Of a stretch of 64,000 nt of DNA, positions 1,317 through 9,280 are shown piece after piece. The DNA is from Exiguobacterium artemiae 255-15. Lineage in GTDB: Bacteria; Bacillota; Bacilli; Exiguobacteriales; Exiguobacteriaceae. Within the stretch, counting starts at the first letter, position 1; each line of letters opens with the position of its first letter. The notes under the pieces are model-generated. The model made no database searches, was not told the DNA's origin, and saw only the letters and a program-made list of their open reading frames with translations. Position numbers and translations under genes: made by a program. Where the stretch lies: the NCBI RefSeq assembly GCF_000019905.1, contig NC_010556.1, positions 274,001 through 338,000 of the forward strand, read 5' to 3'.

Positions 1317-1523
1317 TTATGCGGTCGGAACGTCATAGCCGATTTCTTCAATCGCTTCGACAAGACGTTCTGTCGCGACGTCTTCGTGTGTGACGGTGAC
1401 ATTGTTGTCTGCCAGTGAGACGGTTGCATTCGTGACACCGTCGAGTTCGTTTAACGCCGATTCGACGCTTGCTTTACAGTGATTGCACGTCATTCCGACG
1501 ATAGTTAAAGTTGTTTCTTTCAT
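1317..1523 (-). CDS. copZ: copper chaperone CopZ
   Basis: A 68-residue single heavy-metal-associated domain protein that carries Cu(I) in the cytosol to the CopA exporter and to CsoR. The metal-binding loop is GMTCNHC near residues 10-16 (CxxC), and the protein has the usual small beta-alpha-beta-beta-alpha-beta fold length. I take the ATG at 1523 ([10 protein letters not shown]) as start because it has an AAAGGAGG ribosome site and overlaps the copA stop by four bases (ATGA), indicating translational coupling. A longer open frame upstream is just the other frame of copA. It is the last gene of the operon. Confidence 0.95.
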
Positions 1524-3652
1524 GATTGGTTTCCTCCTTTGGATAGTGGAATACGTTTTAAGCGTAACGCATTTGTGACGACAGAGACAGAGCTGAATGC
1601 CATCGCGGCACCTGCGACCCAAGGGGCAAGCAGTCCGAGGCAGGCAACCGGAATCCCGACTGCATTATAACCGAGGGCGAAAAACAGGTTCTGCCGGATG
1701 TTCTTCATCGTTTGTTCGCTGAGACGGATGGCTGTAATGACTTGCTGCAAATCATGTCCAAGTAACGTGACGTCTGCCGCTTCAAGTGCGACATCGGTCC
1801 CGCTGCCGAGAGCAATCCCGACATTTGCCGTCGCAAGAGCCGGTGCATCATTGATCCCGTCTCCGACCATCGCGACACGCTGTCCGTTTGCTTGAAGCGT
1901 TTTGATGTGATCGGCTTTTTCAATCGGCAAAACGTCGGAAAACACATGGCTGTGTGGTATCTGAAGCTCGGTCGCGAGTTGTAAGGCGACTTCGCGACGG
2001 TCTCCGGTCAGCAGGTAGACCGCTTTTGTCTGCTGAATCTCCTGAATGACCTGTTTGGTAGTCGGTTTCAATTCATCGCGGATGGCATATCCGGCTTCGA
2101 TTATACCGTTGACGGTGACATAGACGACCGTTGCACCGCTTGATGTCCAGTCAGGAAGGGAAAGACCGTGCTCCTGCATCATCCGTACCGATCCGACCAT
2201 GACATCGTGTCCCATAATCGACCCGCGGACACCGCGTCCGGGATCGACGGTGAAATGTTCGATATCAAAGACGACGTCGCGCTCTTCCGTGATTGCATGA
2301 GCGAGTGGATGTTCCGATTTTTTTTCAAGAGCCGCTGCAAAATCCAGTGCCTGTTCCTGTCCGAACGTCTCGATGACGACCGGACGTCCGATCGTCAATG
2401 TTCCTGTTTTGTCAAAGACAACCGCATCGACGTGCTGCAACGATTCGAGTTGGGCACCGCCCTTGAACAGAACACCGTGTTCCGCACCTTTGCCGGTTCC
2501 GACCATGATCGATGTCGGAGTGGCGAGCCCAAGAGCACAAGGACAGGCGATGACAAGAACGGCGATGGCTGGACGAATTGCTTCGGCGAACGAGCCGGTC
2601 GTCCACCACCAGACAGCAAGTGTCACAAGGGCGATGGCGACGACGATTGGGACGAAGATTCCGGAAATCCGGTCCGCCTGACGCTGGATAGGAGCTTTTT
2701 CCGTCTGCGCTTGTTCGACGACACGGATGATGCCGGCAAGCATCGTCTCCTGACCGACTTTCGTCGCTTCAATCGTCAGGTATCCGTTCGTGTTCAAGGT
2801 GCCGCCAATCACGACGTCACCGGTTCCTTTATGAGCCGGAAGCGGTTCGCCGGTCAACATGGATTCATCGAGATAGGCATCACCCGTTGTGATGATGCCG
2901 TCGACCGGGATTTTTTGACCGGGTTTGACGATCAACTGCATACCGGGTTGGACCTGATCGAGCGAAACCGTCCGTTCGACACCTTGTTCCAACACGACGG
3001 CATCCGTCGCTTGTAAGGAAAGGAGGCTTTTGATGGCACCGGTCGTCTGTTGTTTGGCACGATCTTCCAGTACTTTCCCGAGCAGCACGAGCGTAATCAG
3101 GACGGCACTCGTCTCGAAGTAGAGATTCGGCATCAATGGGTGAATCATCATTTCCGCAACGGAATAGAAATAGGCTGCGGACGTTCCGAGTACGACCAGG
3201 ACATCCATGTTGGCACTTCCACTGCGAAGACTTTTATAGGCACCGACATAGAAGGGGGCACCGATGACGAACTGGACCGGCGTCGCCAAAGCGAACTGGA
3301 ACCAGGGATTCATCAGCCAAGGCAGATGGACCGGACTGTTCGGAATGTGGGAGACCATACTGAGCAGTAACGGCAGGGACAAGAAAGCTGCTATCCAAAA
3401 GCGATAGAGCATCCGGCGGTTTTGGACCTGTTCATGTGGTGTCGTCTTGATGGTGGCACCGTATCCGATTTTTTTAATCTTATCTAAAATCAGTTGTTCG
3501 TCCATTTCTTCCGGAACAGCAATCCGTGCTGTTTCGAGCGGCAGGTTGACGGTGGCTTCGACTCCGTCCATCCGGTTCAACACCTTTTCGATCCGGGCCG
3601 AACAGGCGGCACATGTCATGCCTTCGATATTCAGTTCCATTGTTTTCGACAT
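1520..3652 (-). CDS. copA: copper-exporting P1B-type ATPase CopA
   Basis: Membrane ATPase that pumps Cu(I) out of the cell. Visible motifs over 710 residues are: one N-terminal heavy-metal domain (GMTCAAC, 11-17), actuator TGE (267-269), the intramembrane metal site CPC (370-372), the phosphorylated Asp in DKTGT (414-418), the HP motif SEHP (446-449) and the hinge GDGIND (597-602). Eight membrane helices are expected. It is shorter than the roughly 800-residue Bacillus subtilis CopA because it has only one metal-binding domain instead of two. The start at 3652 has AAGGAGGG upstream. It lies 12 bases after csoR and overlaps copZ, so all three are one operon. Confidence 0.96.
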
Positions 3653-3664
3653 TGAAATCCCTCC

Positions 3665-3961
3665 TTACTTCTTAAGACGGGCAATAACGGCCATCAGTTC
3701 ATCAACGTAGACATCAGTATCCTGTTTGCCGGTCGCCGCATCGTGCATACACATTTTGACGTGACGTTCGATGACCTGCAACTCGACTTGGCGGAGCGCC
3801 GCTTGAATCGATGCGGTCTGGGTCAGGATATCGATACAATACCGGTCTTCTGCGACCATGTTGGCAATACCGCGGACCTGACCTTCAATTCGTTTTAATC
3901 GTTTCATCAAAGCATCTTGTTCCTCGGGTGAACGGGGAACAAGGGGATGATCATGTGTCAT
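3665..3961 (-). CDS. csoR: copper-sensing repressor CsoR
   Basis: A 98-residue all-helical repressor of the CsoR/RcnR family that releases DNA when it binds Cu(I). The copper ligands of the family are present as Cys42 (RYCIDIL), His67 and Cys71 (RHVKMCMH). I chose the ATG at 3961 (MTHDHPLVPRS), which has an AGAGGTG ribosome site. A 15-residue upstream extension lacks one and would run into the operator region. It is the first gene of the operon with copA and copZ, and should repress its own transcription through the GGTA-TACC element at 4010-4024. Confidence 0.94.
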   Translation of the reverse strand: MTHDHPLVPRSPEEQDALMKRLKRIEGQVRGIANMVAEDRYCIDILTQTASIQAALRQVELQVIERHVKMCMHDAATGKQDTDVYVDELMAVIARLKK

Positions 3962-4005
3962 GAGGACACCTCTTTTCCGGATTAGTTGATACACCGAGTA
4001 TATCA

Positions 4006-4030
4006 TATAGGTATAGGGGGTACCAGTATA
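4006..4030 (-). promoter_or_regulatory. candidate CsoR operator
   Basis: A G-rich pseudo-palindrome, GGTATAGGGGGTACC at 4010-4024, flanked on both sides by TATA, lies 45-69 bases upstream of csoR. Known CsoR operators have this look: an inverted TACC/GGTA pair around a run of G or C. The position fits autoregulation of the csoR-copA-copZ operon. Confidence 0.7.
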
Positions 4031-5886: not shown

Positions 5887-6213
5887 TTACCCGACATGTG
5901 TGTGTAAAGCGTCTGATGTGATGTCATAGTGAGAAGTCGTCCAGACTGCTCGTCCATCTTGAATGTACAAGACCTGCGGTGATTCGTGCCGGACGTTGTA
6001 ATGTTCTGCGATGTGATTCGATAACGTCCGTGCTTCCTGAATCAATAAATAGGCAGTCGGAACTGCTGTCTCATCCGCATATTTCGTATAGGCGGAAAAA
6101 CCGGCCGAACTGATCGGGCAGGTCGTACTGTGTTTACAAATCACAAATGTTGGGTGTTCGGAAACGAATTGGTCGAAATCGGAAATCGATTGTAGTTTTC
6201 TGAGTTGAGTCAT
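5887..6213 (-). CDS. ytxJ: YtxJ family protein, bacillithiol-linked thioredoxin-like protein
   Basis: A 108-residue thioredoxin-fold protein of the YtxJ (DUF2847) family, general-stress proteins thought to reduce bacillithiolated proteins. The active-site segment is CKHSTTC (Cys26 and Cys32), followed by the cis-proline strand ESPQVLYI near residues 78-85. It starts five bases after the stop of the TPP enzyme, so it is probably co-transcribed with that gene and the dehydrogenase. The family assignment is strong; the redox partner is family knowledge, not visible here. Confidence 0.88.
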   Translation of the reverse strand: MTQLRKLQSISDFDQFVSEHPTFVICKHSTTCPISSAGFSAYTKYADETAVPTAYLLIQEARTLSNHIAEHYNVRHESPQVLYIQDGRAVWTTSHYDITSDALHTHVG

Positions 6214-6218
6214 TTTTA

Positions 6219-7844
6219 TCAGCCTCCATAAGTCCGTAGACGGTCACTTAACTTCAGATTTTCCCTGTAATCGACCGGACAGTCAATTAAAACGGGTCCG
6301 TCACTCAGAAAAGCCTGTTCGAGACAACTGGATAGAGTACCGTGTTCCCCGACACGCAGACCCAGTGCACCAAAGGCGGTAGCCAGTTGAACGAGATCCG
6401 GATTGTCGAATTCGATATAAGGTGCACGACCGTAAGCTTGCTGTTGTTTCCATTCAATCAACCCGTAGGTACCGTCGCGCCAAATGATGACGACGATCGG
6501 CAACTTGAGCCGGACAGCCGTCTCGAGATCCTGGCCGTTCATTAAAAAGGCACCGTCTCCTGAAGCGCAGAGGACACGTTGTTCCGGATGCAACAGTTTA
6601 GCGGCAATCGCACTCGACAAGCCGTAGCCCATCGAAGAAAACCCGTTAGAGATGAACAATTGATTGGGACGGGTCGTCTGAAAATGTCGTCCGAGCCATA
6701 TTTTATGCGCTCCGACATCGGAAAAAATCATGCCGTCCTCGCCGGTTGCCTGCTCGAGTTCACGTACGATGCTTTGAGGATGGAGCGGGAGAGCGAGGGA
6801 ATACGTCGCCTGGATTTCTTGCCGCAAGCGGTCGCGGTCCTGTTGCCAGCCGGTCCAGGCACGATTCGGAATGCTTTCCGAAAGCAGGTGCAGAATATCC
6901 GGGATCGAGCCGATCAAATTTGCAACAACCGGATAAAATTGATCAATTTCATGCGGATTGGTATCAATGTGCAAAACAGGTGTCCGTTCCGGATTCCATT
7001 TCGAAGGTGGCAGTTCCGTGATATCGTAGCCGACCGCGATAATTAAATCGCTTTGATCAAGAATCCGTTGATTGTAATCAGCGTTCGGCAAGCCGATCGT
7101 ATGGGCGGCCAGCTCGTGTAACGAAGACAAGGCGCCTTTTCCCATCATCGTCTCGACGACGGGAGCCCCCAATCGTTCGGCGAAAGCGCGGAAAGCCTCT
7201 GTCGCCCCGCTGCGGTTGATTCCGAATCCGGCAATCACGACCGGACGTTCTGCCTGTTCGATTCGTAACAGGACATCACTATCAGCCACGGATGTCGGAT
7301 GCAGAAAAGTCGGGGGACTGTCCTGTAAAAAGGACATTTTGGCATCGACATCGGCCTTCGCAATATCTTCCGGGAACGACAGATGGGTCGAACCGGGCTT
7401 TTCGGAAACAGCCTTTGCGAAAGCCTGACGAACGACTTCTGAAATGACTTCGCCGGAAACAATCGATGTGCTGGATTTGGTAATCGGCCGGTACATCTCG
7501 ACCAAATCAAACATTTGATGGGACGCTTTATGCTGGCGCCACGTCGCACCTTGTCCGGTGATGGCGACGACAGGGGAGTGATCCATTGTCGCGCTTGCGA
7601 TCCCCGTCATCATGTTGGTCGCGCCGGGACCGAGCGTCGACAGACAGACACCGGGACGTCCGCTTAACCGACCGAACATCGACGCCATGAAGGCGGCGTT
7701 CGTCTCATGACGTGTCGTGATGAACGTGATATCCGATTTACTTATGGCTTCGAGCAGCGTGATGTTCTCTTCACCGGGCACACCGAAGATATGGGTTACG
7801 CCTTCCGCTTCCAGACACTGGACAAACCGTTCCGCCGCGTTCAT
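6219..7844 (-). CDS. thiamine-diphosphate enzyme, acetolactate-synthase-like; possible 2-oxoglutarate decarboxylase
   Basis: A 541-residue IlvB-like enzyme with the three TPP-enzyme domains. The catalytic Glu47 lies in TRHETNA, the FAD/TPP-fold segment LGPGATNMMTG is at 71-81, and the TPP-Mg motif starts GDG at 429-431 with Asn436. No regulatory IlvN subunit and no ilvC or alsD gene lies nearby, which argues against branched-chain synthesis or acetoin formation. Its ATG overlaps by four bases the stop of a succinate-semialdehyde-dehydrogenase-like gene. The same pairing in Synechococcus forms the 2-oxoglutarate decarboxylase/SSADH bypass, whose decarboxylase was also first annotated as acetolactate synthase. 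The N-terminus (FGVPGEENITLLEA) resembles that enzyme as I remember it. Fold and cofactor are sure; the substrate is inference. Confidence 0.85.
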   Translation of the reverse strand: MNAAERFVQCLEAEGVTHIFGVPGEENITLLEAISKSDITFITTRHETNAAFMASMFGRLSGRPGVCLSTLGPGATNMMTGIASATMDHSPVVAITGQGATWRQHKASHQMFDLVEMYRPITKSSTSIVSGEVISEVVRQAFAKAVSEKPGSTHLSFPEDIAKADVDAKMSFLQDSPPTFLHPTSVADSDVLLRIEQAERPVVIAGFGINRSGATEAFRAFAERLGAPVVETMMGKGALSSLHELAAHTIGLPNADYNQRILDQSDLIIAVGYDITELPPSKWNPERTPVLHIDTNPHEIDQFYPVVANLIGSIPDILHLLSESIPNRAWTGWQQDRDRLRQEIQATYSLALPLHPQSIVRELEQATGEDGMIFSDVGAHKIWLGRHFQTTRPNQLFISNGFSSMGYGLSSAIAAKLLHPEQRVLCASGDGAFLMNGQDLETAVRLKLPIVVIIWRDGTYGLIEWKQQQAYGRAPYIEFDNPDLVQLATAFGALGLRVGEHGTLSSCLEQAFLSDGPVLIDCPVDYRENLKLSDRLRTYGG

Positions 7845-9280
7845 TGATCGAGTCCGCCAATCGATACATATTTGGTCTCGAGGTAGGCTTCGAGACCTTC
7901 CGATCCGCCTTCACGACCGACGCCGGACTGTTTCATGCCGCCGAAAGGAGCCTGGGCAGCTGAAGGCACACCGTCATTCCATCCGACGATTCCGTAATCG
8001 AGATGCTCGATGGCTTTAAAAGCGCGGGCATAGTTGTTCGTAAAGACATAAGAGGCGAGGCCAAACGGCGTTTGATTGGCATAATGAACGGCTTCTTCAT
8101 CTGAACTCACACGCTGGACAGGCGCAACCGGACCAAACGTTTCTTCGTTCATGATCAGCATTTGCGGCGTAACGTCAGCGAGTACAGTTGCTTCATAGTA
8201 GTAGACATCATTGTCGTCGTCGGTTTGTCCGGATCCGCCGGTCACGATGCGGGCACCGGCCGAGGTGGCATCATCGACATGTTTTTTGACCTTATCGTAT
8301 CCGGCCTTATTGATCATCGGACCGATTTTCGTCTCCTGATCGAGTCCGTTGCCGGTTTTCAGTTTTGCTGTTTCCTGACCGAGCTTTTCGACGAATTCGT
8401 CATAAATCGAGTCCGAAACATAAATCCGGTTACCGCAGACACACGTCTGGCCGCCGTTACGGAACTTCGATTTAATCGTTTCTCTGACGGCAAGATCGAG
8501 ATCGCAATCGTCAAAGACAAGAATTGGAGCATGTCCACCGAGTTCGAGAGACATCGCTTTGATGGTCTCCGCACCTTGAGCCATCAACGTCCGACCGACT
8601 TCCGTCGACCCCGTGAACGTGATTTTGGCGACATGCGGATGTGTCGCCAGCGATTCGCCTAAGTCTTTCCCGCTTCCGGTCACGGCATTGACGACGCCGT
8701 CCGGAATCCCGACTTCCTGGCAGAGCTCGAGCAGACGGAGTGCCGTCAATGGAGTAGCCGTCGGTGGTTTTAAGACAAACGTACAGCCTGCGACGAGCGC
8801 CGGGGCTAACTTTCGGGTAATCATCGCAGCCGGGAAGTTCCACGGGGTAATCGCAGCGACGACCCCGACCGGTTGTTTGATGACATGAAGGCGTTTCGTC
8901 GCATCGTGTGACGGGATGATACGCCCGTAGGCCCGCTTTCCTTCTTCCGCAAACCATTTGACGAAGTTTGCTGCGTATTCGACTTCACCTTCCGATTCCG
9001 CAAGCGGTTTTCCCATCTCGAGTGTCATCAAGCGGGCCAATTCGTCTTTTTTCTCGAGCATCTTCGCATACAACTTTTCAAGAAGAGCTGCTCGTTCGTA
9101 CACGGTCCGTTTCGACCAGTCGGGGAAAGCGTTGTGAGCCGCTTCGACGGCATCGTTGACGTCAGATTTCGTTCCGTTTGGTACACTGCCGACGACTTCA
9201 CCTGTCGCCGGATTTTTGACATCCGTCCGTTCACGTCCCTGATCGAGCCACTGTCCATTGATTAAAAACTTCCCATTCAT
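7841..9280 (-). CDS. gabD: NAD(P)-dependent succinate-semialdehyde dehydrogenase-like ALDH
   Basis: A 479-residue aldehyde dehydrogenase of the GabD type, oxidising an aldehyde to the acid. Motifs present are TPWNFPAAMITRK (cofactor), FTGSTEVGR, the catalytic Glu in SLELGGHAP (about 255) and the catalytic Cys in GGQTCVCGNRIYV (about 289), with the double-Cys CVC typical of succinate-semialdehyde dehydrogenases. A ribosome site AAGGGGG precedes ATG 9280. It is the first gene of an operon with the TPP enzyme (4-base overlap) and ytxJ. No GABA transaminase or permease gene is present, so the substrate is more likely supplied by the overlapping decarboxylase. Confidence 0.88.
   Translation of the reverse strand: MNGKFLINGQWLDQGRERTDVKNPATGEVVGSVPNGTKSDVNDAVEAAHNAFPDWSKRTVYERAALLEKLYAKMLEKKDELARLMTLEMGKPLAESEGEVEYAANFVKWFAEEGKRAYGRIIPSHDATKRLHVIKQPVGVVAAITPWNFPAAMITRKLAPALVAGCTFVLKPPTATPLTALRLLELCQEVGIPDGVVNAVTGSGKDLGESLATHPHVAKITFTGSTEVGRTLMAQGAETIKAMSLELGGHAPILVFDDCDLDLAVRETIKSKFRNGGQTCVCGNRIYVSDSIYDEFVEKLGQETAKLKTGNGLDQETKIGPMINKAGYDKVKKHVDDATSAGARIVTGGSGQTDDDNDVYYYEATVLADVTPQMLIMNEETFGPVAPVQRVSSDEEAVHYANQTPFGLASYVFTNNYARAFKAIEHLDYGIVGWNDGVPSAAQAPFGGMKQSGVGREGGSEGLEAYLETKYVSIGGLDQ

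Follow-up and report, generated by a model that had tools for sequence, protein, structure and literature searches.

A candidate 2-oxoglutarate decarboxylase and GabD-type succinate-semialdehyde dehydrogenase encoded as one unit in Exiguobacterium artemiae, which also encodes OdhA/OdhB

The cyanobacterial OgdA/SsaD bypass, exemplified by A2770/A2771 of Synechococcus PCC 7002 and by the KGD of Microcystis, combines a thiamine diphosphate (ThDP)-dependent 2-oxoglutarate decarboxylase (KGD or 2-OGDC) with a succinate-semialdehyde dehydrogenase (SSADH). According to PMC10418658, the KGD of Microcystis aeruginosa NIES-4325 (MiKGD) has been purified and is active on 2-oxoglutarate, Microcystis KGD releases the aldehyde, and MaKGD of strain NIES-843 gave no aldehyde from pyruvate or four other 2-oxoacids. 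Here we describe a three-gene unit of Exiguobacterium artemiae 255-15, located in a 64,000-nucleotide stretch of contig NC_010556.1 (positions 274,001 to 338,000, hereafter the window), which is likely a new occurrence, in variant form, of this known bypass. As read from its sequence, the unit probably provides a route from 2-oxoglutarate to succinate parallel to OdhA/OdhB, with the SSADH and the ThDP enzyme coupled in translation. A search of the open-licence literature found no paper on a 2-oxoglutarate decarboxylase in Exiguobacterium and, among the titles listed, none in Firmicutes; the papers that link Exiguobacterium to SSADH or to the tricarboxylic acid (TCA) cycle do not, by title, concern such a route.

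The genes of the unit follow one another on the minus strand in the order SSADH, ThDP enzyme, bacilliredoxin:

7841-9280, minus strand: SSADH of the GabD/ALDH5 type, 479 amino acids, intact open reading frame, first gene of the unit
7841-7844, minus strand: four-base ATGA overlap, read in the sequence, shared by the SSADH stop and the ThDP-enzyme start
6219-7844, minus strand: candidate ThDP-dependent 2-oxoglutarate decarboxylase (KGD), 541 amino acids, intact open reading frame, IlvB-like
5887-6213, minus strand: YtxJ/BrxC monothiol bacilliredoxin (TIGR04019, PF11009; motif CKHSTTCPIS), third gene

The ThDP enzyme carries the N, M and C TPP_enzyme domains of Pfam and the SSADH carries Aldedh. 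Both reading frames are intact at the positions where the initial annotation had placed a ThDP enzyme and a GabD-like dehydrogenase overlapping by four bases. All three genes occur together in each of the 19 genomes of our same-genus sample, which includes that of the window. The junction between the first two is a 4-nt overlap in 18 of these genomes and a 2-nt gap in the remaining one, which argues that the arrangement is not due to chance. The bacilliredoxin, a gene absent from the initial annotation, starts 5 nt past the ThDP gene in the window and 4-6 nt past it in 19/19 genomes. Scans for promoter-like sites (4 found, 4.3 expected) and terminator-like sites (3 found, 4.8 expected) were uninformative. 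No IlvN-like gene adjoins the ThDP enzyme, a statement about its neighbours only as a genome-wide IlvN search was not made.

When aligned with KGD and with AlsS/IlvB, the ThDP enzyme is closer to KGD by identity, model scores and active-site letters. It is 46.0% identical over 546 positions to the NIES-4325 sequence (L063), which we infer to be MiKGD itself from the strain, the length and the 15/15 fitting residue numbers. Identity is 43.6-47.6% to 73 cyanobacterial sequences, 38.8-49.6% to 24 sequences of other Bacilli (the matches to NF006187 at E 1e-150 minus seven set aside as AlsS-like) and 41.0-47.1% to 11 other relatives. The corresponding values are 34.9% for the genome's own AlsS, a member of the same superfamily, 32.7-35.3% for 11 AlsS of the same genus, 35.2-37.6% for the seven AlsS-like Bacilli sequences and 26.8-31.5% for eight IlvB. 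The window enzyme also differs from the AlsS of the AlsS-AlsD acetoin pathway in its active-site letters and in its partner gene.

Among NCBIfam models the ThDP enzyme scores best, with 643.1 bits (cut-off 509), on NF006187, which is named ‘acetolactate synthase large subunit’. The enzyme falls below the cut-offs of both AlsS models (482.8 versus 510 and 456.7 versus 551.1 bits), on which the AlsS of the genome reaches 900.7 and 835.6 bits. NF006187 is also the best of the models scanned for the NIES-4325 sequence (877.8 bits); a database model therefore does name such enzymes acetolactate synthase, a misannotation to which the initial annotation had drawn attention. As the NIES-4325 sequence also exceeds the cut-off of the AlsS model NF006378 (521.2 bits), that model alone cannot part KGD from AlsS. 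NF006187 is itself no clean marker, being over its cut-off in 2 of 14 control genomes, with Bacillus subtilis and Methanosarcina acetivorans as its control matches at E 1e-150. The nearest sequences in the PDB are AlsS enzymes, and a phylogenetic study clusters the Synechococcus enzyme with acetolactate synthases (PMC4224347).

We compared 15 positions that were docked or studied by mutation in MaKGD (PMC10418658), where docking stands for a model and not a structure. The window enzyme has the same letter at 12 of them and differs by Q254P, A408S and G437A, position 408 being Ser in 10/19 same-genus sequences. Its active-site residues, in window numbering, are:

6219-7844, minus strand: ThDP-enzyme residues E47, H380, K381, M405, D430, D457, Y460, L462 and K466

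The two docked lysines, K386 and K471 of MaKGD, are Lys in all 19 same-genus and all 73 cyanobacterial sequences, but in none of the 18 AlsS-like sequences (Y or A at the former, Q at the latter) and none of the eight IlvB (Q and W). At positions 384, 386, 408, 410, 467 and 471 the letters of the ThDP enzyme are unlike those of the AlsS-like set.

The GabD-like nature that the initial annotation had ascribed to the dehydrogenase is upheld by its best model (TIGR01780, 636.8 bits, just below the cut-off of 646.35), its nearest match in the PDB (E. coli GabD, 3jz4, E 8.4e-164) and its residue set. Residues R156, R274, C280-x-C282 and S452 are kept in 19/19 same-genus copies, and K157 is also present in the window. 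Judged by the motif, R156, R274, C280, C282 and S452 probably correspond to human Arg213, Arg334, Cys340, Cys342 and Ser498. According to PMC11681614, SSADHs fall into two families, two arginines and a serine bind the semialdehyde, and Cys342, Lys214 and Arg334 occur in ALDH5 members only; the cyanobacterial type with one active-site cysteine is described in PMC7510979. In the 59 cyanobacterial aldehyde dehydrogenases (ALDHs) that we measured, the Arg334 place is taken by L, M or I and that of the second Cys by A, S or G, in contrast to the arginine and two cysteines of the window SSADH. The KGD-like enzyme of the window thus has its partner from the SSADH family other than the cyanobacterial one. 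Alignment to E. coli GabD shows a common C-x-C loop and MITRK segment, but the cofactor segment (residues 171-174) reads KPPT in 19/19 same-genus copies and KPAS in GabD, and there is no gab operon at the window. In the genome's second SSADH this segment is KPSE. Because a Ser to Glu replacement at the last place of the segment cut the NADP+ affinity of a cyanobacterial SSADH 30-fold (PMC7510979), the window SSADH, judged by its KPPT, likely uses NADP+.

In its gene order, too, the unit resembles the cyanobacterial bypass, where the SSADH gene lies upstream on the same strand at 60/73 loci; the docked lysines of the related ThDP enzymes and the predicted reactions are likewise shared. The window unit differs by its additional downstream bacilliredoxin gene. 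Across the wider family, relatives of the ThDP enzyme adjoin ALDHs of three unlike types in either gene order, which argues that the product is an aldehyde and also that the substrate may vary between lineages. The third type, with H at the first Arg place, is found at 11 Bacilli loci and at 3/4 other loci with a measured ALDH (L163-L168, L144-L148, L169, L170, L118, L140 and L141 are loci where it stands beside a ThDP relative); its closest models are those of lactaldehyde dehydrogenase (L164, L140), and such loci may encode related two-gene pathways that start from a different 2-oxoacid. On a Haloarcula plasmid (L139, 2604-5587), a cyanobacterial-type SSADH overlaps a ThDP relative by 4 bases. 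Beside the ThDP gene of genome G339 (L172, 3499-3912) there is only a short ALDH-like frame (60 amino acids, 68% identity), the gene of which may be broken or cut.

The genome contains a full-length odhA (1127.4 bits, cut-off 770) and an adjoining odhB (577.2 bits, cut-off 378.65), whereas 2-oxoglutarate dehydrogenase is reported missing in cyanobacteria (PMC5160925). Among 61 genomes surveyed for odhA, 48 have it: 19/19 of the same genus, 18/18 of the sister genus and 11/24 other Bacilli. The unit as the sole closure of the TCA cycle is ruled out by these genes. The initial annotation had proposed an oxygen- and lipoate-independent closure by a KGD/SSADH bypass; its call of the enzymes is probably right, given the identity, scores, residues and GabD-type partner, whereas its replacement of 2-oxoglutarate dehydrogenase fails, and the unit can at most be a second, parallel route. 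No match to NF006187 at E 1e-150 occurs in the sister genus, of which 19 genomes were listed, 18 of them being those of the odhA survey. There is no odhA match in G332, G299 and G365, the three closest relatives outside the genus whose partner is of the GabD type, and odhA is missing in 4 of the 11 other Bacilli with the third ALDH type; an association of the GabD-type partner with the absence of odhA is suggestive in this small, non-independent sample.

An AlsS-AlsD pair lies elsewhere in the genome (G000:C1:2226376), AlsD being assigned by PF03306 of Pfam (NCBIfam gave no match at E 1e-80). As, in addition, no genome match to IlvB is over the family cut-off and the best one to IlvC reaches only 20.7 bits (cut-off 226.15), an acetolactate role is not needed for the unit. 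Catabolism of γ-aminobutyrate (GABA) as the reason for the SSADH was considered and rejected: the genome has no match to glutamate decarboxylase at E 0.001, and its best to GABA transaminase scores 153.5 bits against a cut-off of 506.65. This rejection is weak because other class-III aminotransferases are present and ArgD can act as a GABA aminotransferase (PMC5160925).

Phylogenetic trees favour, but do not settle, the assignment of the ThDP enzyme to the KGD-like group. In the main tree, built from 70 of the 153 collected sequences, the genus forms a clade at 100 (starred). L166, whose Bacilli genome belongs to a different family, joins this clade at 96 (starred) and a wider Bacilli set does so at 89; the AlsS sequences make up a clade of their own, also starred, with a long branch. 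A separate 41-sequence tree joins the window clade to L166 at 98/92 (starred) with AlsS excluded from the join, and gives no firm branching order at the base shared by the family and AlsS. The ALDH of L166, the nearest partner outside the genus, passes TIGR01780 with 655 bits. With four long sequences removed, all 54 KGD-like sequences of the resulting 66-sequence tree are set apart by a branch at 75.9 (unstarred). The enzymes of three Clostridia-type records (L110, L112, L114) cluster with cyanobacterial KGD at 100 (starred) in the 70-sequence tree, a grouping that hints at transfer between phyla; none has an ALDH alongside, L110 showing only a weak, distant match.

Several observations weigh against a dedicated 2-oxoglutarate route. 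Approximately unbiased (AU) tests rejected neither a grouping of the window clade with AlsS (p 0.191), so that AlsS may attach beside this clade, nor a core KGD group from which certain Bacilli are left out (p 0.2). K386 is Lys in 24/24 other Bacilli and 11/11 other relatives, and since it is kept even where the adjacent ALDH is different or absent, it marks the family and not the substrate. K471 is Lys in only 13/24 other Bacilli (H in 7, E in 3, M in 1) and 9/11 other relatives, and it is E in L173 and L174 although both have a GabD-type partner. The docked Gln254 is Pro in 19/19 same-genus sequences, and both lysines were placed by docking and are not among the mutants described in the accessible text of PMC10418658. 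At 13 of the 73 cyanobacterial loci, that of NIES-4325 included, no ALDH is present in the fetched flank, some of these contigs being cut. SSADH activity is also not unique to the unit, because another gene of the genome, with no gab-like neighbour recognised by eye, passes TIGR01780 (647.2 bits) and the unit's own SSADH falls short.

Three other explanations of the unit have to be considered. The ThDP enzyme could decarboxylate a different 2-oxoacid, such as 2-oxoadipate or another dicarboxylic one, with the GabD-type partner oxidising the resulting semialdehyde. GabD-type enzymes can have relatives acting on longer semialdehydes, and the unlike ALDH partners of the family, which make varying substrates probable, point the same way, as do the Pro at 254 and the Ser at 408. 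The enzyme nonetheless shares with KGD the two docked lysines and the letters in contact with ThDP, and the ALDH has the residues by which ALDH5 enzymes are described as handling succinate semialdehyde; we regard this explanation as rather unlikely. Considerably less probable is that the ThDP enzyme is a catabolic or biosynthetic acetolactate synthase that merely adjoins an SSADH gene. The NF006187 name, the nearest PDB sequences and the attachment of AlsS allowed by the AU test speak for it, but the enzyme scores under both AlsS cut-offs that the genome's own AlsS far exceeds, differs at six active-site letters, is joined to L166 with AlsS outside in the 41-sequence tree, and is distant from AlsS by identity in a genome that has an AlsS-AlsD pair elsewhere and no IlvC over its cut-off.

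Carboligation is common in the ThDP-enzyme superfamily, and the enzyme might use 2-oxoglutarate as a donor, with the SSADH only clearing leaked semialdehyde. A precedent is Rv1248c of M. tuberculosis, which makes 2-hydroxy-3-oxoadipate with glyoxylate (PMC10418658). The tight coupling to SSADH in 19/19 genomes, however, argues that what the enzyme mainly releases is free semialdehyde, and Microcystis KGD does release the aldehyde, making a carboligase, like an acetolactate synthase, a very improbable identity for the window enzyme.

Combining these observations, we favour the following model of a 2-oxoglutarate to succinate route. The ThDP enzyme would decarboxylate 2-oxoglutarate, its presumed substrate, non-oxidatively, giving CO2 and succinate semialdehyde, which the co-translated SSADH would oxidise to succinate, probably with NADP+. 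The shunt would run beside OdhAB and skip succinyl-CoA, trading NADH and a nucleoside triphosphate for NADPH. The bacilliredoxin, finally, may reset the C-x-C loop of the SSADH.

This last step leads to a more speculative proposal, which we consider doubtful, that the shunt is redox-gated: in oxidative stress a disulfide or bacillithiol would close the C-x-C of the SSADH and the unit's bacilliredoxin would reopen it, switching NADPH-yielding flux with the redox state while the lipoate-dependent OdhAB is vulnerable. In human SSADH, a disulfide that links the corresponding cysteines reportedly closes the enzyme. The third gene scores as a bacilliredoxin (TIGR04019, 115.6 bits, cut-off 77.25), is the only YtxJ match in the genome, and its CKHSTTCPIS motif is found in 19/19 same-genus bacilliredoxins. 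Against gating, a C-x-C is also present in E. coli GabD and is by itself no proof of a switch, and the sole bacilliredoxin of a genome presumably serves many clients. No publication naming such a redox-gated shunt was found in the open-licence literature.

Next to the unit, positions 1317-4006 of the window encode a metal-responsive repressor (PF02583) together with what by eye are a copper P-type ATPase and a small heavy-metal-binding protein; an HTH_38 protein resembling an IS30-type transposase is encoded at 223-1161. That no ilv, als or gab genes lie nearby, as the initial annotation had stated, agrees with the location of the genome's AlsS and other SSADH-like genes outside the window.

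As OdhAB is present, the benefit of the shunt, and the physiological use that we infer for it, would be that of an adjustable succinyl-CoA bypass yielding NADPH. The fit of NF006187 to a Microcystis decarboxylase means that many genomes probably carry the wrong name for such genes, and the recurrent pairing of the ThDP enzymes with aldehyde dehydrogenases of unlike types suggests more than one assembly of the route. If correct, our assignment would add a heterotroph of the Bacilli, one with 2-oxoglutarate dehydrogenase, to the bearers of the 2-oxoglutarate decarboxylase/SSADH route, and the purpose of the shunt could then be asked in an organism whose cycle can be closed without it.

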